DNA of 64,000 nucleotides from Nymphaea colorata (Eukaryota; Streptophyta; Magnoliopsida; Nymphaeales; Nymphaeaceae): assembly GCF_008831285.2 (NCBI RefSeq), contig NC_045147.1:20774581-20838580 (forward strand), written 5' to 3'. The notes beneath the pieces are model-generated. The model was given only the letters and a program-made list of their open reading frames with translations. It ran no database searches and was not told the DNA's origin. This document shows positions 27,201 to 64,000 of this stretch, one piece after another; positions within the stretch are counted from its first letter, which is position 1; each line of letters opens with the position of its first letter. The position numbers were made by a program, and so were the translations under genes.

Positions 27201-28198
27201 TATACATATATACACACACATATATACATACACAATATGGAAAAATACATTCATTAAGATTGCAATCCAATGCAATGCATATAATTATATTGTAGTGTAT
27301 TGAATATATAAATTCTATGTTGTATATTGAACATATAATTACAGGTACAGCAATACATGGGTGCGCCTGTGCACCTGAAGTGTCGGAGGTGTGTCCATAC
27401 CCACACCCGTGTCCAGGCGAGTCGACACTGACACTTCAGGTGCACAGGCGCACGCGTGTATCGGAGATGATGACCAACTTATCAGACCTAGTCTGGGTGA
27501 GCTACGACCAGTTTATCATTGTGAACTTGTCCTTATCAAGCTTAGATGTGTCATTTCTTCTTCAGATCAATCTTCATTTGGAGCAAAATTCATGACTGAG
27601 GCTCTGGTAGAGAGTTGGTGTCTTCTGAGCTATCTGCATTAGTTGCAGATTGCATGGACTGTTGTTTTAAGCTGCCGTTTGCATGGTGCCGTGCTGAACT
27701 AGGCTCTTGAATTTCATAAAAGAGCTCACAGATGACTGACAATTTCCTATGCAGAACTGGACAATACATGGGCTGTACTGGGGAAGCTATAACATTCATC
27801 AACCAGGAGTTCTCAGAGAATCCCTCTATGAGCTGCTTTCTTGGCTTGCTAAGGGCATGATAGGGGTGCACATTTCTCATAGTTTTCGACTTTCAGAGGT
27901 TGGTTTTTATCTTACACTTGCTGTTTCCTCAAACTAAGAGTGCTTTCCCATATATGCTTTTGTGATCTTTCTTTAATTCATGATCTCTGTTGTCGTGCTA
28001 CATTATTCTCACCTTTAAGCATGCCCCAAATAACGTTTATTTGAAGTTAGAATATGAATAAGTAGCAAGTCAGCTCAGCTTTGAATGATTTTATTTTGGC
28101 AGGCCAATCTTGCATTTTCTGCCATCAAAGAGAGGAAAGCGATCGGAAAGGTCATAATCAAGTTCGATGATGTGACCACCATGAAATCCAGACTTTGA
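21280..28198 (+). CDS. Quinone oxidoreductase-like protein (zeta-crystallin/MDR family)
   Basis: Six exons: 21280-21620, 23154-23262, 26428-26519, 26693-26951, 27755-27898, 28103-28198. They join in frame to 346 residues, the usual length of this family. Residues about 30-120 form the GroES-like N-terminal fold (SVRIRVRATSLNYANYLQI, FIPGSDYSGVVESVGSGV). The Rossmann NAD(P)H-binding motif is VLGAAGGVGLSAVQIGK, with GAAGGVG at about 155-161; DVLYDPVGG and LVIGFASGEVP follow. No structural-zinc cysteine cluster is present, as expected for the zinc-free quinone oxidoreductase branch. The closest relative I recognise is Arabidopsis At3g56460. The expected activity is NADPH-dependent reduction of quinones or reactive enones, probably cytosolic or peroxisomal; the C-terminal SRL is a plausible peroxisomal targeting signal type 1. 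Intron 2 is about 3.2 kb and introns 2 and 4 carry repeats. Confidence 0.9.
25272..25337. repeat. 33-bp tandem duplication in intron 2
   Basis: Two copies of a 33-base unit starting GACAATGCACGACATTAGAA, differing at only a couple of positions, at 25272-25304 and 25305-25337. Confidence 0.85.
25370..25712 (-). repeat. Dispersed repeat in intron 2 (CCTATGTCACATGGGTAC family)
   Basis: An AT-rich body with a (CATA)n palindromic stretch at about 25578-25622 ends in a GTACCCATGTGACATAGG block near 25694-25711. The reverse complement of that block occurs in intron 4 (about 27109), so the two insertions lie in opposite orientation in one gene. Confidence 0.5.
27090..27460 (+). repeat. Dispersed repeat in intron 4 ending in a perfect foldback
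   Basis: Begins near CCTATGTCACATGGGTACAG (27109), passes through AT-rich sequence, and ends in a perfect 24-base inverted repeat (arms about 27361-27384 and 27430-27453) separated by about 45 bases. The arms read GCGCCTGTGCACCTGAAGTG and its complement. No coding sequence. Confidence 0.6.
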
Positions 28199-30701: not shown

Positions 30702-32546
30702 TCATGTTCCTGTAATTGCAACACCCACATCCGGCTCGTAACCATGTTCCCGCAACATCCCCATTAATACATGCAAAAGTTCGTAGATCTGATCAGATCC
30801 AGGATTTGCACGAAGACCAGTAATAAAAGCATGCACCCCATGATCGAGTTCAATCCAACTACAGCCAGGCATTTTCTTCACTCCTCGACTCTTCATCTCC
30901 CTCCGGACTTCACTCACTTCTTCATAGCGGCCTGCGTCACTGTAGATGTTGGATAGCAACACATAGTTCCCACAGTGCTCAGGGTCGAGCTCTAACAGAC
31001 GGCGAGCAGCCACCTCTCCCAAAGTTGTTTCCCCGTGCAGTCTACATGCACCAAGAAATGCCCTCCAAACCACCGGATTGGGCTCAATATGCATGTCTTG
31101 CAGGATAGAGTAAGCCTCATGCAAGCGGCCAGCACGACCAAGCATGTCAACTGTGCAGGCGTAGTGCTCCACTGTTGGCACCACTCCATGCTTAGACTGC
31201 ATCTGCCTGTACAACTCAACGCCACAATCAAAGAAACCAGCATGGCTACATGCAGATAACACACCAACGAAAGTGATCTCATCCGGCATCATGCCAGCCA
31301 TCTGCATTCCCTCAAACATTTCCAGCGCTTCCTTGACATAACCATGCATGCCATACCCAGTGATCATGATGTTCCAAGATACCAGATCCTTTTCAGGGAT
31401 GTTATCGAATACTAACTGTGCATCTCTCAAGCTCCCACATTTCACATACATGTCCATGATAGCATTCTGGGCAAAGACATCATCCCTCCCCATGGCATTC
31501 ATCATGGTATAGCCATGAATCTCCCGTCCGTGTTTGAGTGCTGCTAAATGAGCACAGCTTGGCAAGACTGCAGTAATCGTAACAGCATCTGGTCTAAAGC
31601 CACTTGCCCTCATCTCATCAAACAGGAGCAGAGTCTCATCATGATAGACAGACTGTGAATAACAAGAAATAATGGAGTTCCACGAAACCATATCTCTCTG
31701 CGGCATTTCATCAAACACTTGCCTAGCCTCTTCCAAGCTCTTGCATTTCCCATACATATCTATCAAGGAGTTGCATACCACAACATCGTCATGGAATCTA
31801 TGGTCCCTAACATAACTATGAATCTTTCTGCCTCTTTCAACGTCCCCCATTGCTGCTAAGACTGACAGAATCCCGGTGGCCGTATACTTGCTGAGTTCGA
31901 TTCCTTCTTCTTCCATCAGCCGAAACACCTCCAAAGCTTCAACATATCTACCACTTTGCGCATACCCGCTAATCATCGAGTTCCACAATACAACGTCTCG
32001 CTCAGTCATTTTATCAAACAGTTGGCGTGCATCATCTGGGGCATCAAATTTCAAGTAGAAATTGATCAGGGAAGCAGAAATGAAAGCATCCAAATGCAAC
32101 CCTCCCTTAAACAGGCCAGCATGGACTTTCTTGCCTTCCCAAGAGTCCTGCAGATTGGTACAAGCCTTAAGCACGCATGGGTAGGTGAACTTGTCTCCAC
32201 GTACATGGCTGGCTTTCATCTCGTGATAGAAACCAACTGCATCAGAGAAGTAATGGCCGTGAACGAGGCCAGCAATGAGGGCGTTCCATGCGAACACATT
32301 TGGTTCAATTGTGTGACGGAAAACCTTAACAGCTTCCCATGGCTGGTGGCACTTCGAGTACATATTGATAAGGCTGGTGACCAAGAAAGGGATCTGCTGT
32401 AAGCCGTTGATGATAATCCATGAGTGAGCCTGCTGTCCACGGTTGACAGCTTCGTTGAAGGCACACGATTGAAGAAGAGAGACGCATCTGCTGACATTGC
32501 TATTGGGTGGTTGTGAGACTAAAGATCTCAGAATGGTGGAACTCAT
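30702..32546 (-). CDS. Pentatricopeptide repeat protein, PLS class with E motif (At3g14730-like)
   Basis: Intronless frame of 614 residues, complete from MSSTILRSLVSQPP to TGT. PPR motifs run from about residue 50 to 490, with the typical S/L/P signatures: SLINMYSKC, VFAWNALIAGLVHG, VVLWNSMISGYAQSGR, LIDMYGKC, MVSWNSIISCYSQS, IMDMYVKCGSLRDA and LVSWNIMITGYGMHG. From about 495 an E domain follows (LLELDPEHCGNYVLLSNIYSDAGRY... MPGCSWIELDHGVHAF), without a DYW deaminase end. The architecture and many segments match Arabidopsis At3g14730. PLS-E proteins bind organelle RNA, usually to specify a C-to-U editing site together with a deaminase partner supplied in trans. A clear targeting peptide is not obvious; the Ser/Arg-rich first 20 residues could serve. 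No frameshift or stop interrupts it. Confidence 0.92.
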   Translation of the reverse strand: MSSTILRSLVSQPPNSNVSRCVSLLQSCAFNEAVNRGQQAHSWIIINGLQQIPFLVTSLINMYSKCHQPWEAVKVFRHTIEPNVFAWNALIAGLVHGHYFSDAVGFYHEMKASHVRGDKFTYPCVLKACTNLQDSWEGKKVHAGLFKGGLHLDAFISASLINFYLKFDAPDDARQLFDKMTERDVVLWNSMISGYAQSGRYVEALEVFRLMEEEGIELSKYTATGILSVLAAMGDVERGRKIHSYVRDHRFHDDVVVCNSLIDMYGKCKSLEEARQVFDEMPQRDMVSWNSIISCYSQSVYHDETLLLFDEMRASGFRPDAVTITAVLPSCAHLAALKHGREIHGYTMMNAMGRDDVFAQNAIMDMYVKCGSLRDAQLVFDNIPEKDLVSWNIMITGYGMHGYVKEALEMFEGMQMAGMMPDEITFVGVLSACSHAGFFDCGVELYRQMQSKHGVVPTVEHYACTVDMLGRAGRLHEAYSILQDMHIEPNPVVWRAFLGACRLHGETTLGEVAARRLLELDPEHCGNYVLLSNIYSDAGRYEEVSEVRREMKSRGVKKMPGCSWIELDHGVHAFITGLRANPGSDQIYELLHVLMGMLREHGYEPDVGVAITGT

Positions 32547-33433
32547 CCAGAGATCAGTCGCATCTTTGAGCGCCGAAGGCAGGAGGGCTTAATATGGAGT
32601 GGCCTTGGAAGAGAATATAGGCAATTGATTTGCTGCTTACTCATGTTACTTGTCACATCGTCGTATCCGCATCTCAGACGGCGATACCCGAACGCTCCAA
32701 GTGCTCTTTTATCACAGCAGACGGTGGGGTAAACGGTTGGGGTTGGGATAAATACGCCAGGGATGGTTCCGGCGAGAAACGGACGAAAGCTCTAGCTCAG
32801 CAGCCTAATTGACCCTTCCATTCACGGAAACCAGAAAAATTCGAAGGGCAAGAGGTAATAACATTTTAAAATATACATACTGAAATGAAACACTTCGAAA
32901 TTTCGGGCTTTTGAAATTTCATAGGGTGAATTTATACATTAAAATGACCGTCTTGAAGAATTTGGTTTGTTAGGATTTCATATATTAAAATTCACTATGA
33001 ATCTTTAAATATGTAGATAGAGTAAATAGAAAGGTTATGAAAAATGATTATGAGTCAACTCATCTATTTATTATTAGTTCATGGTGTGCTAAATGATTTT
33101 ACGCTTTGCGGAGACAATATAATATAGGAGCTGAAACGGTTTCAGTTTTTCTGTTTTAATTAAATTAAATAATTTAAACTACTTTTTACAATATTTTGGT
33201 TTTTCATATTTACGTTGTCCACACATCTCTATTCATGAATATGTAAACTAAATACAAAAGACCTGGATCGAATGAGTTGTTAATTTAATTGGAACGATGG
33301 TTTATAAAATGCTGCATATAAAATTGTAGTCTTAGAGAGGTTAATAAGAAGTAATATTGTGACTTAAAAATAAATTTTGAGACAAGTTTCTCAAATGGTA
33401 TGTGTGCATATATATATATATATATACCATTTC

Positions 33434-45823: not shown

Positions 45824-46364
45824 GGGGTGAACACGAGCCAAGTTGAGCCCGAGTTCAGTCAGCTCGAACTCGACTCAACTAATGAAACCTCAAGCTTGAG
45901 CTCGACTCGGCAGTTATGTGTTGAGTTCGAGCTCGACTCTATTAAAACTCGACAAACTTGTTTGAATAGAATTGATATTCATTGTTATGTGTTAAGCTCG
46001 AGCTCGACTCGATTAAGGCTTGACAAACTCGTTTGAATAGAATTGATATTCATCGTCATGTGTTGAGCTCGAGCCCGACTCGATTAAGGCTCGACAAACT
46101 CGTTTGAATAAAATTGATATTCATCGTTACGTGTTGAGCTCGAGCTCGACTCGATTAAGGCTCGTCGAATTCGTTTGAATATATTGACTTGATTAAGGCT
46201 CAAGCTCGACTCGGCAGTTACATGTTGAACTCGAACTCAACTCGATTATGTGAACGAGTCGACTCATGAACACGAGCTCGACTCTTTAAGCAAACGACTC
46301 GGCTCGAACTTGTTCACGAGCCGAGCTTTAGCAAGTCGAGCTCGTTGATCACCCCTAGCTCTGA
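45824..46364. mobile_element. TIR element of the CTCGAACTCGA family with internal 71-bp array
   Basis: The left end AGGGGTGAACACGAGCC and the right end, reverse complemented, AGGGGTGATCAACGAGCTC form terminal inverted repeats. Between them are many GAGCTCGAGCTCGACTCGA blocks and, at 45917-46185, a tandem array. I found no clean target-site duplication (hAT elements would give 8 bases). No coding capacity. Confidence 0.6.
45917..46185. repeat. 71-bp tandem array, about 3.7 copies
   Basis: Unit starts lie at 45917, 45988, 46059 and 46130, exactly 71 bases apart. Each unit begins TGTGTTGAGCTCGAGCTCGA (variants) and contains CTCGTTTGAATAGAATTGAT. The last copy degrades after about 55 bases. Confidence 0.93.
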
Positions 46365-50960: not shown

Positions 50961-51249
50961 TAAGAGGACCGTAAAAATTATTAACTGTTAGTCTTTAGTT
51001 CAACCTGATGCACAAGTTGTGACATAAAAATCCATCTTTCCAAAGTCTATTAGCCAGTTCTTCAGCAAATATTTTCATGAGGACGTTGCACGATTGAACT
51101 CATAATCCGCATGGATTCATGATGATATAGATGTCATTTTACCTATTCCCAACCGCTAAGGGCAATTTGGTAAATGAGACCGACCAATCACATCGCACGT
51201 TAACACTAAGCTTTTACCATGACAGCACATAGATTTTTGTCTTAAATAG

Positions 51250-53310
51250 TAAGAAGGGAAGCGCTGCTCCTAGTCAGGAGCGTTAGGTCCTCCCACTTCC
51301 CTCTCTCAGTCCCCCTCTCTGTCTCCCTTCTGTTCATTTAGTAAATGAACCCTTTGTTCGTCGTCGATTTGTTTATCTATTTGCGTTTTTTTACAACGAG
51401 TAGTTCATATTCTTCCTAGATCTGCTGGACGCTCCTTCTCTCTCTCTCCCTCTCTCGCCGACCCTCTAGCTTTCTCTCTCTTCAGTCACTTTCTGCCTGT
51501 GAAAAAAACTCACCCTGATTTCCATGTGAAAGCGACTTAGCTTTTGTTTCCCACCTAGTTTATTTAGGATAATTGCATGAAATATGATCTCATCTCCTAT
51601 AGATTTATGTAGCCCTGTCCTTATTTCCTTTGTGGCACTGCGTTTTTTTTAAAAAAATTTTTTTCTCATCTTGTCTTGTGGGTGAGGGGGAGTCATCTGC
51701 CTTGCCCTTCACTGGTTTGGTAGGGGAAAGAGAGGGAGGATCAGGGTCTGCAGAAGTGGAAAACCATGGAGTTCTGAAGATGGAAAAGATGTGGATGTGG
51801 GTGCTATTTTTACTTTTCCTTCATTGCCTTTTCAGGGTATGTTATTCCTGTTCATTTTGTTTTTGCTAGGTTTTTGATGGGGTTTGGCTTTAGAGCGAGA
51901 GGGACAGAGGCTGAGAGAGATCTGGAAGAGGGGTCTTTTCTCTCTCTCTCTCATGTGTTTAGACTTTGTGGCTTGAAGGATATGGGTTTTACGTGGATTT
52001 AGTTTGTGAGTTAAAGGTGGACAGTTTCTACGTGTACGATGGCTGTTCTCAGAAAGGGATTCGGGATTCGTTTCTCCGACAGCCTTCATGGATCTCCATT
52101 GTAGATTCATGGATGCTTCAGAATGGAGCTGAGTTATAGATCATTGAGATGTATTAGAATGATTGTTATGTTGCTATTGCTAGTTTTATGAGCACAGATT
52201 TGATGGCGGTTCATGGTTTCTAATTAACTCTTGCGTGGGGCAAAATATTGAGGGTGTTTCTGCTAAAAGGAGAGACGAGAGAACCTCAGAAAGTTGATAT
52301 TATGATATGTACCAGTGATTTTCTTTTTCGCATTCTGGTCTTATTTGTTTGATTCAACCCAATGCTATGGCAACTTACCAAAGTCTAGCTAAATCACTGG
52401 CATTCTACTTTGTTTGATAAGGGTTTTTCTTGTACATGAATATAATGAATTGTCCCAAGGGGAGGAGCTAACTAAAGATATTTTATGCGTTAATTTTGTA
52501 GTAATAGCATCAACAGAACAATGCACAGCACACAGGTTACGCTTGTTTCTGTTGTTTTAGGAAATTTTTGGGAATTTTTGTGATCAACTTCATGGTTAAG
52601 TGATTTTGGGCATCCAGAATATGTCTTGAATGTTCAAAACATGGTGCTTGTGATGGCTGTATGTGAAGTCTGTTTAGTCAAGTTGATCTTTGTATGTGGT
52701 GTTGCTTCTCGAGGTTCCTGGTTGATCCGAGACTCTTATATGCCTGTTTGTTTTGTATAATTTATTGATATGATGCCGTCTTCCCATGGTTGGTATTTGG
52801 TTTTTAAAATGATGATACAGAAAGATCCATGTAAATATCATTTATCAGTTTTATGATGGGATGGTTTAGACGAGGATGATCATGAAGGAAGGTTGATGTA
52901 ATATCATACATCATGTTTATGATGGTGGCGGTTTAGATGTTAATGCTAATGCATGATGTTTGACATGGTTTTCTGATGTGTATTTATTTGCCTTGCTTCA
53001 TTTTCTTGGCGATTAAGTCCGCAAGAAAATAATCTTCTGTTCTCAAGGATAATTACTTTCAGTTCTGAACACGAGGAATTTGGGGTGAACGTTGTTTTCT
53101 GACCCTTGGATCAAAAGGATCATACGGTGAGTGGGTTGATTATCACAGAAAAACAAAGAAACCGATGGGCATTGTCTGACTGAAGGAGGGAGGAAGAATG
53201 CTGGGTAATGACATCATGGGGAATGGGAAAACTTTGCTTTCTTCCATTAAACGCTGTGTCCGAGTGAATGAAATGCTTGATTTTGATGTCTTTCAACAAA
53301 GTATTGATGG
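51250..53310 (+). other. Probable 5' part of the MIR319 primary transcript
   Basis: A CT-rich leader-like tract (51290-51480) is followed by non-coding, intron-like T-rich sequence up to the MIR319 hairpin. A short frame at 51780 reads MEKMWMWVLFLLFLHCLF and reaches a good donor (CAGG then GTATGTT at 51837). Extension of the primary transcript this far is inference from composition only. Confidence 0.3.
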
Positions 53311-53539
53311 ATTTAAGGGAGCTCTCTTCAGTCCACTCATGGATGGCAGGGGGATCGAATTATCTGCCGACTCATTCATTCAAATGCCGAGCAGGTAGCA
53401 GCAGCAGTAAAAATAAAGGAAGGGAAAACGAGAAGGGGATGGGAAGATATTGGAGGGTGGTGCACTGCTCGGTGATTGTGTGAATGATGCGGGAGATAAA
53501 TTTCATCCCGTGCTCACCATACTTGGACTGAAGGGAGCT

Positions 53540-53548
<9 letters not shown>
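53311..53548 (+). ncRNA. MIR319: MIR319 precursor
   Basis: The 21-base mature miR319 is present exactly at 53523-53543, beginning TTGGACTGAAGGGAGC. The opposite arm at 53315-53337 (AAGGGAGCTCTCTTCAGTCC) pairs with it. The foldback continues: the block 53362-53393 (ATCTGCCGACTC ... GCCGAGCA) pairs with 53466-53497 (TGCTCGGTGATTG ... GGGAGAT), leaving a terminal loop of about 70 bases. This long stem with a second conserved duplex below the loop is the hallmark of the MIR319/MIR159 family, which is processed from the loop toward the base. The T-T-G-G-A-C start and CTCCCT end distinguish miR319 from miR159. miR319 directs cleavage of class II TCP transcription-factor mRNAs controlling leaf growth and flower organs. 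Confidence 0.95.

Positions 53549-53574
<26 letters not shown>
53549..53574. repeat. (CT)n run directly after the miR319 hairpin
   Basis: A CT repeat begins within a few bases of the mature miRNA's 3' end. A second CT run lies at 53911-53943. Confidence 0.9.
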
Positions 53575-53577
<3 letters not shown>

Positions 53578-53904
53578 CTCTTTTTTCTGTGTTCTTTTTT
53601 CAGGTTGGTTGGTAACCTTTCTTAAATGTCCATGGTGCTTTCCTTTCTCTTTCTCTGTATGTGGGAGAATGTGGAGTCCTTGTGGTGCAGGGACTGGAAC
53701 TAAAACTTTGTCTGTTTTGCTGATGCATATATTCGGATGATTGTGTGTCTGAAATTTCAGGCTGTAAGGCCAAAACCCATCTCTCTTTGTCTCTCTCAAA
53801 GAAACGAGTCTGATAGCCTATAATGGCGTAGGTACTGGGGATTACTATTTGTTCCGTATGAATGTGATCAGACTACTGCAATCTTCTTGACAAATTCAGG
53901 CTAC

Positions 53905-53947
<43 letters not shown>

Positions 53948-55391
53948 GTTTCTGCTGTTCCTCCAGATATGAAAAAGAAAATCAACAGTCTCCACTTGGG
54001 GTCACAACTGATCTCTCTCTGAACATTTCAAATGTCCGGTTCCTTCCCCGTGATTACGAGTTGGCGATGGCGACGGCGACGGAGAGCACCAGAACACCCC
54101 ACATATGCTTTAAGCTTCCTCATCTATCGCTACCAATTTCTTTCTACCTTCTTCAGGTCGAGATTATGGCAGCTGTTTTGCAACAAATCACCGAGCTTTT
54201 TTTTCCTCTTCCATTCTTCTCAGTCACTCAAACTGCCATCTATCGTTAATATTTCTGTGAAGAATTTTGAAACAACAATCGTACCTCACCATCCCCATTA
54301 AGAAAAAGGACCCTCTCTCTCTCTCTCGCTTGGTGCCTTCCCATACAGGAAAAGACAGGTTAAAACTCATTCTTTATTGCTTTTGCACCGATTCCTTTAC
54401 AGTCTGCCCCCTCCCCACCCTCTCTCTCTCTCTCCCCATTTTAATATTACAAGATCCACGAGCACGGATTTTCTCACGGTCACGATTAAAATAAATGAGA
54501 AATTCCTTCGCTCTGTCTGCTTTGTTTCCTTGGGCCTCAGCATCCACCACCAACGGGCGGGAAACTCCATTTCTCTTTTGCTTTTGTTCTTTTTCCTTTT
54601 TCCTCTTCTTCTATTCTTTACTGTTTTTCCTTGTTTGGAATGCGGCGTATGCCAGTCGTGCAAGTGTATGTCAGGGTTTTCCTTTAAATGGAAATCATTT
54701 TCTGGTCCTCAGATGAATTTCCTTCCTGGTTTAGCGCTCAACTGTATATTTTATGTGTATTTTCTGTACTTCCTTTAATTTTTGTGGTTTCTCTTAGTTT
54801 CGTCTTAGCGCTTGGGAGAAACCCCTTGTTTTATTTCCTTTTTCTTCTTTTCTGTTTGTAGATTTCCCCTGTGCAATTCTTTAGGACGTTGCCTCCCTTC
54901 GATCGTTTTTTGGTTCTTAGAAATGTTCGTTACGGTTTTGGTGTTTGAACTTTGAACTTTCGTTTATTCATCTCCAAACGCGTTGGCCTCTCTCTCTCCC
55001 CCCTCCCCCCCATGCATGCGTTTGTTTCCTCTCTCTTCCAGCCATCTGTTGGCGTTCCGTTTTCCTGTTAAATTTTTGCTTTCATTTCCTTCACAACACT
55101 TTAAACCCTCTCTCTTTCTCTCTGGTTCGTCTTTGTCTGTGTTGTCTTGTCAAGTGTGAGCATAACAATGTGAAACGGAGGATATTGTTTCTAATTCTCA
55201 AAAGTAGCATGCCATTCAAATGTCGGTCTCTTTTGCCTACTAGATGGCGTAAAATTTGATTCAATCAGATTTTGAGAAATCCTTTAGTCCGATACAATGC
55301 ATGGGGAGGTGTGTATAATCCACCCTGGATGCAATACATCTTGTATTGGAGGGAGGTGGAAATGGTGGATTTCACGTCCTCTCTCGCTTTC

Positions 55392-55396
<5 letters not shown>
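53575..55396 (+). other. Probable 3' part of the MIR319 transcript and intergenic
   Basis: CT- and T-rich sequence without a recognisable protein. The 120-codon frame at 53887-54249 starts inside a CT repeat and lacks motifs. The end of the transcript is not visible. Confidence 0.3.

Positions 55397-55467
<71 letters not shown>
55397..55467. repeat. (AT)19(GA)16 compound microsatellite
   Basis: AT run to 55434 followed directly by a GA run, the same order as at 33407 and 48175. Confidence 0.96.
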
Positions 55468-55469
<2 letters not shown>

Positions 55470-55510
55470 CGCTTACTGGCTTGGATTGGATGTTTATGCT
55501 TGAATCTTCT

Positions 55511-55738
55511 TCAGCCACCCGACGAATGACCTCCAGCCTGGCTCTGACCTTCTGTGGTTGTCGATTGTGACCAAGAAGCTAGGTTGGCGATGCTCTCTTT
55601 TTCAACAGAGACGTCAATTTTGAAGTTCTCCACATCTTTCGGCCAACTTGCCGTTGCGTCCATCGGTTGAGCTGAACTGCTGTTTTCTCTGTCGGGGGCA
55701 AGTTTTTGCAGGATCTCCTGATCAAGTGAAGAGAGCGA
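55511..55738 (-). CDS. Possible orphan terminal exon, unknown protein
   Basis: A minus-strand frame of about 75 codons reads SLSSLDQEILQKLAPDRENS and later SWPKDVENFKIDVSVEKESI, ending GGHSSGG and a stop at 55511-55513. Its balanced, hydrophilic composition looks coding, unlike the opposite strand. It has no ATG at its start; an acceptor-like CTACTGAG precedes it. I recognise no family and found no companion exons, so it may be the last exon of a lost gene or chance. Confidence 0.25.
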   Translation of the reverse strand, partial: SLSSLDQEILQKLAPDRENSSSAQPMDATASWPKDVENFKIDVSVEKESIANLASWSQSTTTEGQSQAGGHSSGG

Positions 55739-58040
55739 TCACTCAGTAGCATGCACCAGCTAGTGGGTGGCTTTAACTGTTAAATGTGAACATCCATACA
55801 CAGCTCCTTACTCAGAGCCAGCACTCTTCGAATAAGATAAATCACGTATTTTTTTTCTCTTTATGCTGTGATGCTTGTAAAGGCTAGAATAATTCAAAAT
55901 CCAACTCAGTTCATTGGTTAATGTCGTGAAATTGAAGAATTGATGATTTGTTAAGAGAACTAGTTTTCACTCCTACGGGGCATCGTTATGTTTCTTTACT
56001 TAAATGAGTATATAGAAGCATTTGAGTGCTATGTATATAGCTATTTCATGAGTATGGCACAAAGATTGAGGCTGATTAATTGAACATTTTAAAAATTGTT
56101 TTATCAATTTGCCCCAGTGTTTGGGACCTTGTGAGGTCGTTTGACAGTAGACTCTGTGAGTGTCTTGGATTAAGTTAGATTCATGAAACATTAACGTTTC
56201 ATGAATTTATTCAAATGAGACTCTCACATAGAGTGTCATCCCTAAAGGAACATAATCAAAATTTAACAATGCCTCGTTTCAACTTGACTGTAGCTAATAT
56301 TTAACAAAACAAGACTTCTATATAAAAGACAAATAATGGTGCCCATAAAACCAGTTAGTGCTGCTCTTAGTTTCTCGAGTTTGGTCATAGCTCTGGCTAA
56401 GGCTAACATAATTCGATAAGCTTAAGAAACCCGTCTGTATATGAACAAGGATGCCACATCTTGAAGTTACCGGCAAATTAATTGTTACATTAGTAAAAGA
56501 GACAAATCTTTTAAGGTTTCGGAAAAGCATCGGAGAAAGATGGTTTGTACAACAGCAGGTGTGCTTTCCTCCTTCAACCACCAGATGAACACAAAACATT
56601 GATGGGTTCCTTCCAATATTTGGATGTCCTCCTTCTCTCTACTTCCCTCTGGTTGCATCTTGTTGATCCTTGCCATAAGTAGACTCCCACTGGCATAAAA
56701 AAACAAAAAGCAAAGGAAAAAGTGCCTGCCTTCTCATGGAGGATTCACGTACGCATTTATGGACGTTGAACCACGTCAACGTTTTGTTGCCGATCAGCTC
56801 TTCCATGATTGTAGCTCCACTGTCGTCTTTCATTCATTGCTCCTTGCAATGATCGTTATGGTCATCTCTTTGCATGAGAGAGAGTCGTTTCTTGCAATTT
56901 ATTGCAGCAAATTCCCATTTATTGGGTTGCAATTTGCAGCATCTTGCTAAGATATGGATAGATATGTTTCTCGAAATTTATTGCTGCAAATTCTGTCTTT
57001 TTGTGTTGCAAGTTGAGACAGCATATAAATATAAATATGTATATATATTATGCCTGTATGTATGATGAATATGATCAATTGAGTAATTCTATTAGTTCTT
57101 CTGATGTACATCTAATTAACTAATTCATTGAAGGCATCCAGCCGTCCAAAGATTTCTTCGTTAATGAAAAAAGTTGGTTATTATAAGTGAAGAGCAGCTT
57201 ATATTTTTTTTACTTTGAAAAACAACGTTAAAAGTGGCACCTTATATATCATAAACAAAATTGAACAGATAGTTAATAAACAAGTGGTCCCATATTTACT
57301 TAATACATGTATTGCATAAACCCTATACATGTAAAGTATCATTATAACCAATTCCATTTGAGACTCGTATTTTGAAGAAATTAATCGGGCTGGGGAGAAC
57401 AAAGGAAGAACAAAGAGAAAAAAAAAGGTGAAAGAACGTGAGAGAAAGCAAGCAGTAAAGAGAAACCAAATCACATTCTCCCGTATATATGAACTTTGAC
57501 GGCTCAACCTAAAGTCAGTACCATGTTTGGCAGAAATTTTCACTCGCTTTTTGAGGGCAACACATACGTGCATTCAAGGGCAACTTAAGTTTTAATTTTT
57601 CCAATTTTTATTTCCTTCCACTTAGATTCTACATTTTTCTATAATTTTGAGAATTTTTACTGATTATTGTTATATATAATATATAGTCTACCGCATCGGT
57701 GTTTCTTTAAATACCATCTCATACCCACCTCATCATACCGTACCCAAACTCATACCTATGAGTCTGTACTGACCTTTTTCCAAAGCGATGGGGAAATGAC
57801 GAACGGCCTTTGAGGGTGTGTAAACGAGTGCTTTTGAGGTGGGTGTGGTCTTCAAAAAATAAGCGAAGAATTGTCGAGTGTGGCCATCATTATGTGCTAG
57901 CTGCCAAGTGGGATTGGATTTCCATTTTCGAAGAACACTTCTCAGCCTTTTGAATCGCCACCTTCCTCATTTTGCTTTGAGGATTGCAAAATCAAGCTTC
58001 ACGGGTTTTGAGCCTTCTTTTTGAAACATCAGAGCAACTC
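55739..58040. other. Gene-free stretch
   Basis: AT-rich sequence. Only short open frames without motifs. 57700-57780 contains CCCATACC-type phrases reminiscent of the repeat in introns 2 and 4 of the oxidoreductase gene. Confidence 0.4.
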
Positions 58041-58046
58041 CACAAA

Positions 58047-58175
58047 ATGCAGTCATGGCTGTGTTCACTGTCCTCGGCCGTCGGGCATCGCCGGCCAACC
58101 CGACAGGCACCACCGGTGTCCGGAAAAAGAGAGGAAGAGAAAAATGAGAAGTTGATCTCGGACGTCGTAATTTGA
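58047..58175 (+). other. Short GC-rich open frame, unknown
   Basis: Begins MQSWLCSLSSAVGHRRPTRQ and ends after 42 residues at 58175. Locally GC-rich and exon-like, but with no recognised family and no clear continuation. Confidence 0.2.
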
Positions 58176-61170
58176 CGTCCTTGAATGTTTGGTTTAACTA
58201 GAATCAGTGTTCAGAAAACTATATATAAAAAGAGAGAGACAGAGAAAACCCACGGAAACACTAAATTGGAGATTTACATATTAAACCAACAAAGTTTTTC
58301 ACGCATTTGGGATGATTAGTGTTCAATCTCGAACATGACAATTTCTTCTGCCGGTGACTCAAGCTTTTTTGAAAGGAACCCACTAAAGAGCCGGCCTTCC
58401 AAAGGCAGACTCAAGGGTTAATTCATCTCTGAGAGTCTGAATCCAAGCCTCAGTCACCATCCCTTACCAGTCCATCAAGAAAAAGCGTTGGACGCAGTAG
58501 CCATGTTCTGCTTTGACCTGAACTGTTCACCGGACACTTTCCCTTTATGATAAATGATCTGTTCGTTCCAAAATGACCTTACTGTCCGCATTTTCACAGG
58601 CAGTGAGCGCCTTTTACTACTGTTTCTTTTTGCCACCAGTCTGCGCGCTTGGGGAATAACGCAGCTCGTGAGGCAAAGCCGATCGACAGGCGTCAATTGC
58701 TGGTTGAAAACTACTGTTTCCTGACTACCTGCTATCGACCGGAGGCGATGATGTAATGAAAGTTGCAGATGGTGTTGATTTAAAACACATGAGAAGCTTG
58801 TTTTTGCCATTATTGATCACGATTTGACATCCGCGTCCATTTTGTCTCATACCAATGCTTATAAAGGGATTAAGATATTATAAGTTTTTTGTTTAAAAAG
58901 ATTTTTCTTTTTTATCTTTTTAATGCAAGTGGACAAAGTTAAAATGAGCAGATATAAGAAGTTTGTGTCCTCCTTGCTCAAAATAGAGAACCCAGTTACG
59001 ATTAAAGCACTGCAGCATAACAATCAAAGATATATATATATATATACTTCGTTGTGCTAGTAAGTGGGAGAAATACAGAAGTTGAACCTCATGTTTTGCA
59101 TGGCAAACCAGTTTATGAGTGTTTAAGTCTGACCTGATTCTCAATCTGATACACTATAATCAACTCAAGATCCGAATCAAGCAAACTTAACCTTGTTCTA
59201 GGACTCGGTGGTTCGGTAATTTTTTTTGGCTTTGCATCAGAGATCCACACCACCAGATTGCTATTTGAACATATATATACAAGAGGGTTCCACCCCAACC
59301 AAATGAAAAAAATATATATATAGTGTAAAATTTGATTTTTTTTTTTGTTTCTATGTGTTTTTTTAGTGTGAATTAAGTTTGACCCTACCCAAATCCAACC
59401 CACAAAACCGAGCCCCCATTTGGCTCACCTCTGAAGAAAATCTTGGCTCCTTCCCCAATTGTTTTCTTAATGGACACTCTTAATCTAAAAAGGAAACTGT
59501 GGTTGGCCACTAATCAAAGTGACTAAGCAAGCTTAAAGTGCTCGAATTGTCGCATATCGTTGCTTAGAGTCTTGCCAACCTCCTAGGCCAAACCAATAGA
59601 GCTTAAGATTCAAAATTTTGCCAATCAATGAACAAAATGTTCTTCTTCACAAGTGCCTTTTAAGAGATACATCAATCCTATGAGCTTACTAAAAAAGTGG
59701 CATCAACTGGATTCACCTTATAATGTTGGAAAACCACCTTGGTCGTCAGTCCTTTTGGGTTTTTTTAGCTCTCAATATGAATATCTCAATATCAACAAGT
59801 TCATTTTTTCTTCTCTCTTGTATCGTCTAACAAAGAAAGATATCATAGAAAGTTATTTCATGGATCTGAATTAAATAAAGTATATGGGTCCTCTCATTAG
59901 TTAAAAAAATATACCACACCTAAATCTAACTGAGGTAATGTGCAAGAGTTGAGGTGCCTGAGGTAATATGGAGTGGTTCAGGAACTCAACCATAAAAAAG
60001 GAGATTCTAGTTGCAAGTTATCAAATGAAAGAAGTTTGATGTTCATGCACCCATTGTTTGACATATTCGCTTTGGGTGAGTGGATGCTATTCGAAGAAGA
60101 GTTGAAGCCCCTCTTCTTTGTGTCGTCCTCAAAGTTTAAGGCTGCGTCAGGATTTTGGTGGACTAGTAGTACACCTATCAACTAAAGTGCCACAAATTGC
60201 AGCTTAAAAAAGCAACGCTCACAATAGTAAAAACAGACCTCTCACCAGCCCGCCAACCTGACCCACTATGACGTATTTGTCGGGGAATTGTGCCTATTCA
60301 CTTGCTTGCACAGGAAAGTAGAGAAAAAATTGAACTCGGTGGATAAATACATGGAACATCAGCAACTATAAAATAAAAAAATATCCCAACCATTAAATTG
60401 CACCTTTAGATGGTCATCATAAACACAAAACACAAAACATTCTTCGCTATTTTTCCAGGTTTATTATGCAGGTCAATCAAACAGTAGAAAAAGAAGTCTG
60501 GAAAAATTTATCCTGACCATTAAACACAAGATGAATTGGGAATGAAGAAAATAAGTCCACTTCCACCCTATTCAAGAAAATTCTATTCAAGAAAATTCTT
60601 TTTAGGCAAAAAAAATTCTTAATTTTTTTTGCCTGTGGCCATAAAACGGGTCCTAAGGGATTGGATCCGGATAGATGTAACTATTACCGGAACCGACTAT
60701 TCGAGTAAGAGAAAACCTAAGCCATACCGTATTATCTGATTATTAATACGGTTGACAACCCAGCCAGGGATGGTCGGTGCATCTGGTTCCGGATCTTTAT
60801 CCAGACCCTATCAAAGTCGGGTCCGACCCGAACGTGGACGACCACAACGAGGCTCTCCCCCCGGACAACGCGATAGCGCGCGAAACTGTTCCGCAGGATC
60901 GACTTGATTTTTCAATGACCGAAAAGCCCCTGGGTTCTACCGTGTTGCCAAGTCTCTGCCGTGTTCTTCGCTGTCGTCTTTAGAAGGTGGAAATCACCAA
61001 GATTCCCGGATTTGTTTCAGTTTTTCGACGTTCGGGACGTTCTTCCGAAGAGGTCGTAGAGGACGGAACGAGGGAGTCCCTGTTATGTCCTTGACCACAG
61101 AATCAATTGCATTTTCGTCATTTCATATTCTTTTTGTTCATCCTATTTACGTACGAGCCCCCTCGGTTGG
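58176..61170. other. Gene-free stretch with repeat fragments
   Basis: No convincing gene. 59285-59455 shares the A/T core and the tail (CTGAAGAAAATCTTGGCTCC) with the foldback at 30342-30560. The 111-codon minus frame at 58475-58810 and the 68-codon plus frame at 60777-60983 lack recognisable motifs. The last few hundred bases are the promoter of the gene at 61269. Confidence 0.4.
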
Positions 61171-61177
61171 TATAAAC
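61171..61177 (+). promoter_or_regulatory. TATA box of the gene at 61269
   Basis: TATAAAC, followed about 30-45 bases later by a CT-rich leader with a (CT)n run at 61216-61240, ending at the start codon context GGGATGGCG. Confidence 0.5.
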
Positions 61178-61268
61178 AGAATTTGTTATTTGTTGCGTAT
61201 TTTTTGTTCCTCTCTCAGTCTCTCTCTCTCTCTCTCTCTGAAATTCTCCGGCGTCGTCGTCTCCAGGG

Positions 61269-61487
61269 ATGGCGTATCGGAGAAGGCACTCCGCGAAATC
61301 GTATCCAACGTTCGCGGATGACCCTCCGTCGTCGCCCACTGGAGAAGATGGTTCATCGTTGGCCGCGGCGGCGATCCGAGCGTCGGCCCTGCGCCGGGGC
61401 TTGTCTTTATCGTCGGCCCATGGAGGGTCCGTCCTTTCCTCGAGTTACAGGGACTCGCCGGAGCATAGGGCGACCGAAATGCAGCAG
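61269..61487 (+). CDS. First exon of a conserved plant protein, function unknown
   Basis: 73 codons from MAYRRRHSAKSYPTFADD to EMQQ, ending at a donor CAG then GTCAGT. The composition (Ser-rich, with SLAAAAIRASALRRGLSLSS) resembles the N-terminus of a plant family with downstream coiled coils that I know only as uncharacterised, so the assignment is tentative. A well-bounded 44-base candidate second exon lies at 62039-62082 (strong pyrimidine tract and CAG before, GTAAGTAG after). Read after the 61487 donor it gives MLLFIKVRIRLYRI; one frame over gives DAPFYKSAHPTVSDP, which looks more natural but needs a different exon 1 end. Later exons lie beyond the window. Confidence 0.5.
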
Positions 61488-63079
61488 GTCAGTTATCCCT
61501 TTCGTTTCGTTCTTCTGTGTTGAGTCGTGGTCTTTTGCATGGTTTCCGGTGTAATCGGCTGGGATTTTTTAGTGAACGCGTGGATGTAGCCGGTTTTCGA
61601 TGAAGTGCGTCCGGTCTTTGACGAGTTTTGGCGGGAAAGCTGGAGTTACGTCCGATTGTTATAAGGAGCCGGATATGAACCGAGTTTCTTATTCGTTCTT
61701 GGAATGATAAAATGGAAAACTTAAATCTCGCGGTGGTTTTGTTGTGAATCATGACAAGTTTGAAGCAGATAGAATGCGTTCGGCTCTCCTCTCATGCCAT
61801 TTCTTGCTCTCGTATAGATTGGTTGTTTGGATCGTGCATTGGCAGACCTGATTATGTCTTTTCTTCTCATTGAGACAATTTAGATGATCTTGTCGTAGAT
61901 GCTGCACCTACTATACGCAATTAAGCGCCATTCCCGGCTACAACTGATTATCCTTTTTCATTTCGAGGGCAGCGTATTGATTGTTTGATTTTGTGATAGG
62001 TTGACACTTTTCCTTTCTCGTTTTCTTTCTTGCATCAGATGCTCCTTTTTATAAAAGTGCGCATCCGACTGTATCGGATCCCGTAAGTAGATAAATGCAT
62101 ATTTGTGCGTAGATTCATTCCTACGTGTATTATTTTATCAAGGGCATTTGGAGTATGCATCAGTTGCCAAACTTCTTTTCCCCTCTCTGTCATTTGCTTT
62201 TGAGGAATTTTTATTGTGTTCAACACTTTGCCTCAAGTATTCGCTCTTCTAGAGTTGAAATGCGATCTTTACCTAGAACTGCCAAACCAGATTGCAGAAT
62301 GGAATATTTTTACGACATTTAACGTTTGACGTTATGTTGTCATGCCGCAGATACGGTGAATGGCCGGCAAAATGACATGAGATTTATACAGCGGAACATT
62401 TGGCCTCTATTTATTAGGCTGGTAAATAGAGAACGAACTTTAGAACTTAAGCTGTTCCATTGTACTCGTGGCCACTGTAATTACCTGTTCCACTCTCACA
62501 TTTGGTTTGGGCTTTGAGTGTGGCGGAACTCAAGTGGCTCTTTAGCAGTTTTTTAGTTTCAACTTCAAAACAATAAAAACCAGGTCAACTAATCACTTAA
62601 ATAGTCTTCTTATAAGTCACTCAAAATTGTTCTCAATCTTAATTAGAAGACTAAACTTTTTAAAATGGAGCGTCACAGCCACTGTGGAGTGTGGAGTTGA
62701 ACATGAGAATTTTACATGACAACCACCATTTGTGTATTTTTATGATCATTAATTGCTAAAAAAATACATTCGAAAATAAGAGATGGTCAAGGTTGTCAGG
62801 ATGCGGAAGTTAATTGCGTTGCTTATAGAAAGGATGTTTGGAATATGATGTGTATGACGTGGCAAAATCTGGCGTTTTGTTTTGTTTTTCGGGACATGTA
62901 ATTGCGGAAAAATTGTGGGAAGAATATATAATATATGTATTTGTATACATCTTATATATAATTTATATAAAATTCTCCAGCCATCCACCCATCCAGGCCT
63001 CACAGCACCCAACTCAATGATGCATTTGGGCTGCATGCTGTGAGGGCTGGCCAGAAGAATCGAAGATTCTTCTCTCTCT

Positions 63080-63137
<58 letters not shown>

Positions 63138-64000
63138 CTACTATACAGTTTTTTGGGAAGAGATTTGACATGTGTTGTTTTGCAATTCTTTTTTTAGAAG
63201 ATAATTACCATATCATTGACGTTTGTTCATGCAAGGCCTCACATTTAGGTCGGATTAATTCTACAATCTCTATACGATCACATTCATCATAAGCATCTTG
63301 CAATCACTGGAAAATTCAGATAGAATTTTCTGCATCATATATATGTGAGGATTATGTCAACTGATTAACCGTTCAATCAACTTACTTAATGGTTAATAAA
63401 GTATTACCAGCGAACTTATTTTTCCAAAAATATAAATCACATGTATTTTTATTAAAAAAAGTAAATTTTGAAAGTGACTTATTATTAATAATTAATCAAA
63501 TTGATCGAACATTTTGTAAATGAATTCATATAGTCACCATTTTTGTTAATCTACAAAATTCTATAGCTATTGCAGTGGGGATTCCCCCACTAACAGCTGC
63601 CCGGTGCACGTGCGTGAGGGTTCAACTCCTGACTGGTTTTATTACCTCACCTCCCCATCTAACATTTTTCACTAACCTTTTTTTAAGCATCCTTATGAAC
63701 GTACCTGATCTTTGGATATTATCTTTACATGTAAGACATTATGAATATAAAAAAAAATAATATTTATTGATGTCTAAATAAAATTTTATAAGATTTTAGG
63801 TCAATTGTCTGAAGTTTTGTTTATGAAAGTGCTCTTTCATGTCCAGACATAATTTAATTTCAATTTTATTATTTTAAAGATGCAAACCACATCTGCTTGA
63901 TACTTAATAAAAAAAAAAAAAAACCTTACACATAAAAGGTGTGGTAAAACCAATCTCGGGAAGGAATTAGCATAATGTGTTTCCCATATGGTTGCATATT
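61488..64000. other. Probable intron(s) of the gene at 61269, with repeats
   Basis: Apart from the candidate exon at 62039-62082 there is no recognisable coding sequence. It includes a fragment at about 62575-62660 resembling one at 25918-25998, an AT array at 63083-63136, and a B-box-like GGGTTCAACTCCTG at 63618-63631 beside a small hairpin (GTGGGGATTCCCCCAC, 63575-63590). Confidence 0.35.
63083..63136. repeat. (TA)n microsatellite
   Basis: About 27 TA units following a short CT run. Confidence 0.96.

Follow-up and report, generated by a model that had tools for sequence, protein, structure and literature searches.

The window analyzed here, a 64,000-nucleotide stretch of DNA (G000:C10:20774581-20838580) within the 407.8-Mb genome that was searched, almost certainly carries on its plus strand an intact MIR319 gene of type 1 (“bi-duplex”). 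In land plants, MIR319 tunes the TCP transcription factors that govern leaf shape. The features seen at the locus and in its genome are an exact miR319, an unbranched stem, a second duplex, near paralogs, upstream blocks conserved with a copy on contig C5, and matching sites in TCP genes.

The miR319 foldback

The initial annotation had recognized an exact mature miR319 in a long foldback, and both features are present. The mature sequence, TTGGACTGAAGGGAGCTCCCT, occupies positions 53523-53543 (+) on the 3′ arm, and we take it to be miR319 as opposed to miR159, whose sequence is TTTGGATTGAAGGGAGCTCTA. It is letter-identical to ath-miR319a.1/b.1 as given in Table 1 of PMC2945783. The only second match with three or fewer mismatches in the 64-kb window is the opposite-arm complement at 53316-53336 (-), which has two mismatches, and 100 shuffles yielded no match at this threshold.

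By folding and Rfam matching, the foldback (pre-miRNA region) reaches on the plus strand from 53306 to 53552, its outermost predicted pair, such that the boundaries originally assigned (53311-53548) fall a few bases within the paired region. Folding 53300-53560, the check that had been proposed, produces a stable structure of -111.85 kcal/mol (z -5.9; equaled by 0 of 200 shuffles), and the minimum-energy and centroid structures agree on a single stem without a branch between 53306 and 53552. When folded alone, 53307-53554 yields -110.15 kcal/mol, a value reached by none of 2041 non-overlapping 248-nt plus-strand windows. The runner-up, an unrelated window at 61226 with a G+C content of 0.625, lies less than 1 kcal/mol away (-109.4 kcal/mol), and thus folding energy is not decisive by itself and was rejected as sole evidence. 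The Rfam MIR159 model RF00638, which describes MIR159 and MIR319 jointly, matches 53307-53554 (+) across its full length (1-196) with 140.8 bits (cut-off 74; E 4.8e-31). Relative to this model, the window copy has a 52-nt insert in its terminal loop.

Within the predicted stem, position 1 of miR319 (53523) is unpaired, and positions 2-21 (53524-53543) pair with 53335-53316. Pairing of 53541 with 53318 and of 53524 with 53335, combined with a 2-nt 3′ overhang, places the predicted miR319* at 53318-53338 (+) on the 5′ arm. The 3′ end of this predicted product coincides with that of ath-miR319b.1* as printed in PMC2945783. A distance of 184 nt separates miR* from miR (53338 to 53523), and type 1 genes are defined in Table 1 of PMC3118147 by more than 60 nt between the two. 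A CT microsatellite (53538-53574) begins within the end of the miRNA and fills the 3′ flank.

The hairpin had been described as lying outside any protein gene, and neither of the two open reading frames (ORFs) that overlap it has a Pfam match above the curated cut-off. We therefore rejected a protein-coding reading; the one hit is a sub-threshold Atrophin-1 match (16.6 bits vs 29.9) over a stretch that takes in the translated CT repeat. Among the ten ORFs of the window that were scanned, these two included, only a PPR gene at 30705-32588 (-), whose product has an E motif, exceeds its Pfam cut-off. Other features of the window include a sub-threshold match to U4 spliceosomal RNA at 58639-58787 (+), with 33.9 bits against a cut-off of 46 (E 9.9e-5), which is perhaps a degenerate copy, and a strongly folding inverted repeat at 27353-27461 whose 32-nt arms are 94% complementary. 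A 71-bp tandem repeat at 45913-46213 is probably a dispersed repeat, because its units are also present in the 80-kb stretches around the MIR319 loci on contigs C5 and C13.

Paralogs and the bi-duplex pattern

A search of the whole genome with RF00638, in which the best 34 of 75495 first-look candidates were scored so that all counts are lower bounds, listed 20 matches comprising 10 full-length sense loci, 9 antisense matches, and 1 short match. The host genome therefore contains a minimum of ten full-length and one short MIR159/319 hairpin, and 7 of the 10 listed full loci exceed the Rfam cut-off in the sense orientation. The ten other listed places were retrieved for comparison with the window copy. 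Exact miR319 is present in five listed loci (the window, C5:9.97, C13:9.446, C2:3.204, and C11:16.980) and exact miR159 in two (C11:16.971 and C11:1.112), with C2:3.188 one letter off; the three remaining listed loci (C13:9.438, C11:16.085, and the short C2:5.199) carry variants. A tree of the ten full loci places all five miR319 copies on the same side of its midpoint (support 89/98, not starred), but this tree is weakly resolved and disturbed by long branches, with one of seven inner branches starred and three open. The short hairpin (C2:5199778-5199877) carries TTTGGACTGAAGGGAGCTCCT without a long stem and resembles the shortened “type 2” genes of Li et al. (PMC3118147).

Among the matches listed, three pairs of MIR159-type and MIR319 hairpins lie on the same strand approximately 8-17 kb apart. 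The MIR159-type copy is upstream of MIR319 at C2:3188101/3204863 (L013/L014) and C11:16971422/16980111 (L011/L015), whereas MIR319 is upstream of a divergent MIR159-like copy at C13:9446723/9438604 (L010/L016). Permissive Rfam scans of 53600-64000 and 1-53250 revealed no MIR159 match at E ≤1 that could be a partner of the window locus. A narrow literature search, which is no proof of absence, returned no statement on MIR159-MIR319 tandem pairs in the excerpts it covered; these concern miRNA clusters generally and, in maize, a cluster made up of MIR159 alone.

The two nearest paralogs, C5:9971848-9972068 and C13:9446723-9446914, share with the window copy an identical miR319 and an identical loop-proximal block on the 5′ arm (ACR5, 53361-53381, +), together with a near-identical miR* arm and loop-proximal block on the 3′ arm (ACR3, 53479-53499, +). 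In contrast, their spacers differ, and their Rfam match lengths are 221 nt (C5) and 192 nt (C13) compared to 248 nt for the window copy. Block boundaries were set by hand, guided by the Arabidopsis products and by the fold of the window copy. ACR3 begins 44 nt before miR319 and corresponds to the position of Arabidopsis miR319b.2, with which it shares 17 of 21 letters when compared by eye.

Pairwise identities among these three copies are 63/63 for miR319, 57/63 for the miR* arm, 63/63 for ACR5, and 59/63 for ACR3. They drop to 46/72 and 43/69 in the lower spacers, 25/33 and 18/30 in the short stretches between the ACRs and the loop, and 8/27 at the stem base, and to 71/178 and 73/180 in the 60-nt flanks. 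The terminal part (53393-53468, +), with the loop, is variable, with 45/201 identities, and is longer in the window copy than in those on C5 and C13. Thus, both conserved duplex blocks that had been proposed from the window alone are real when judged by paralog comparison.

It had also been proposed, before any copies were compared, that the upper duplex is nearly as conserved as the miRNA duplex. This holds among the three nearest copies, where invariant columns number 40/42 in the loop-proximal duplex, 39/42 in the miRNA duplex, and 22/47 in the lower spacers (Fisher’s test for the loop-proximal duplex, p 4e-7 vs spacers and p 1.0 vs the miRNA duplex, with p values serving only as guides because alignment columns are not independent). 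The parity weakens when all five miR319 copies are aligned: the loop-proximal duplex (23/42) is then less conserved than the miRNA duplex (37/42; p 0.0014), although still more conserved than the spacers (8/47; p 0.0003), and the miR319 21-mer is invariant at 21 of 21 columns. Across the ten full loci, the corresponding counts are 10/42, 20/42, and 3/47.

Li et al. 2011 (PMC3118147) describe a bi-duplex pattern for type 1 MIR159/319 genes, of which they count 231, including candidates, from 71 species. The window copy has the extended stem without a branch and two extra well-conserved sequences between miR* and miR (ACR5 and ACR3; 40/42 columns invariant in the three nearest copies). Judged by sequence, this copy and its two nearest paralogs show the published type 1 pattern. 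Arabidopsis MIR319a/b and the other type 1 genes of Li et al. likewise have the same 21-mer, a long unbranched stem, two conserved duplexes, and a 3′-arm miRNA separated from miR* by more than 60 nt. On these features, we found no difference of kind between the window copy and those genes.

Duplicated neighborhood and predicted targets

Contigs C10 and C5 have an inverted colinear block in common around MIR319. The matches follow one order, from two upstream blocks through the hairpin and an ORF at 61242 to several segments resembling coding sequence at 65-75 kb (C10 scale), which lie past the end of the window. Upstream of 51 kb, the C5 comparison reveals only dispersed or simple repeats and, at 43.7 kb, one short and weak match that breaks the order, which makes the colinearity one-sided, toward the downstream direction. 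Most simply, the C5 copy would be a segmental or whole-genome duplicate. The first upstream block (51159-51306, +; 70% identity with C5 over 150 aligned columns, E 2.9e-9) is a candidate promoter. The second (51437-51566, +; 78% over 130 aligned columns, E 2.2e-23) is possibly a transcribed leader, and its CT-rich part contributes low-complexity similarity. Neither block was found upstream of the C13 copy. A common neighborhood with C13 was rejected, since the matches beyond the hairpin over the 80 kb compared are limited to one of the PPR type (25-33% identity), a few short ones (39.8 and 30.3 kb), and dispersed and simple repeats.

A genome search with PF03634 located 18 TCP places, and the 1.2-1.5 kb downstream from each domain start was cut out and scored against miR319 using a simple, ad hoc plant-style penalty. 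Three of these places (L039, L040, and L041) have a predicted miR319 site with a penalty of 4.5, compared to at least 9.0 for the other 15. The three sites are located past the TCP domain, inside the reading frame, where they encode QRGPLQSS or NRGTLQSN, and the genes that carry them are presumably class II (CIN) TCP genes. As a control, sites with a penalty of 6 or less occur 3 times in the 127960 positions of both strands of the window, all inside the hairpin. The miR319 site pattern GGNNCCCTTCAGTCCA has four matches genome-wide, three of which are the sites in L039, L040, and L041 and the fourth of which is at C10:17972849; the reversed pattern has none. TCP genes with a matching site, as a miR319 regulatory module would include, are therefore present in the same genome as the miRNA.

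Alternative readings and meaning of the locus

It is improbable, in our estimation, that the working strand is minus, or that both strands work, with a miR319-like 21-mer being derived from the 5′-arm complement. The minus strand does score 87.7 bits against RF00638, above the cut-off of 74, its fold has a z of -6.9, lower than the sense value of -5.9, and the 5′-arm complement is miR319 with two mismatches. Moreover, sense and antisense redundant copies of ath-MIR319b are mentioned by Li et al. (PMC3118147). However, 9 of the 10 listed full loci match RF00638 on both strands, with sense stronger each time and 4 of the 9 antisense matches listed above the cut-off. The antisense score thus follows from a near-palindromic stem and is not specific to the locus. 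In addition, the antisense-derived 21-mer has G as its first letter, and its pairing with the TCP sites is poorer (penalty 7.0-7.5 vs 4.5 for miR319). Because the minus strand also passes the cut-off, we base the strand call on the exact 21-mer together with the score being higher in the sense direction. The variant in which both strands work is compatible with a plus-strand MIR319 gene, and it would entail transcription of both strands in some tissue and an antisense hairpin giving rise to a separate miR319-like 21-mer whose targets would be altered, a scenario that we likewise regard as quite unlikely.

We also give little credence to the idea that the window copy is a MIR319 duplicate that has been silenced or is decaying behind an intact-looking sequence. 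The genome has several paralogs, so the window copy could be redundant, and this copy has the longer terminal part as well as the CT microsatellite overlapping the miRNA end and filling the 3′ flank. Among the three nearest copies, however, the miRNA (21/21) and the loop-proximal duplex (40/42) are unchanged, whereas identity is down to 22-64% in the spacers, loop, and flanks, a pattern that argues for selection rather than recent copying, and the upstream blocks are conserved with C5 too. Selection that preceded a recent silencing would leave the same conservation pattern. A chance hairpin or an inverted-repeat transposon is far less probable still, to the point of being scarcely credible: the unrelated plus-strand window at 61226 demonstrates that a comparable folding energy can arise elsewhere, but the exact 21-mer, absent from 100 shuffles, the Rfam E value, and the conservation, block by block, with other copies in this genome all speak against such an origin.

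Criteria for plant miRNA annotation require that both miR and miR* be represented by precise 21-nt small-RNA reads. For the preferred reading, a plus-strand type 1 MIR319 gene, we infer expression and loop-to-base dicing from the behavior of the family. Pol II would transcribe a pri-miRNA from an upstream start, perhaps near 51.2-51.4 kb, and DCL1 would first cut below the loop and then move down the stem in steps of ~21-22 nt. The upper duplex would be released first, followed by the spacer duplex and then by miR319/miR319*, after which miR319 in AGO1 would cleave CIN-class TCP mRNAs. Loop-first sequential dicing was reportedly described by Bologna and by Addo-Quaye in 2009. The layout of the window locus is consistent with such processing, in that the 44 nt between the starts of ACR3 and miR319 would fit two 22-nt steps. 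Loop-to-base processing has been shown for the MIR159/319 family in other plants (PMC6195573, PMC2945783, and PMC8688358).

Taken as a whole, this is an ordinary, apparently intact MIR319 gene, a new member of a known family, and it raises no new question. The initial annotation was correct in what it observed and is supported in its interpretation, and a gene build confined to proteins would miss the locus. The paralog set provides a small, independent, within-genome check of the published bi-duplex constraint on MIR319.
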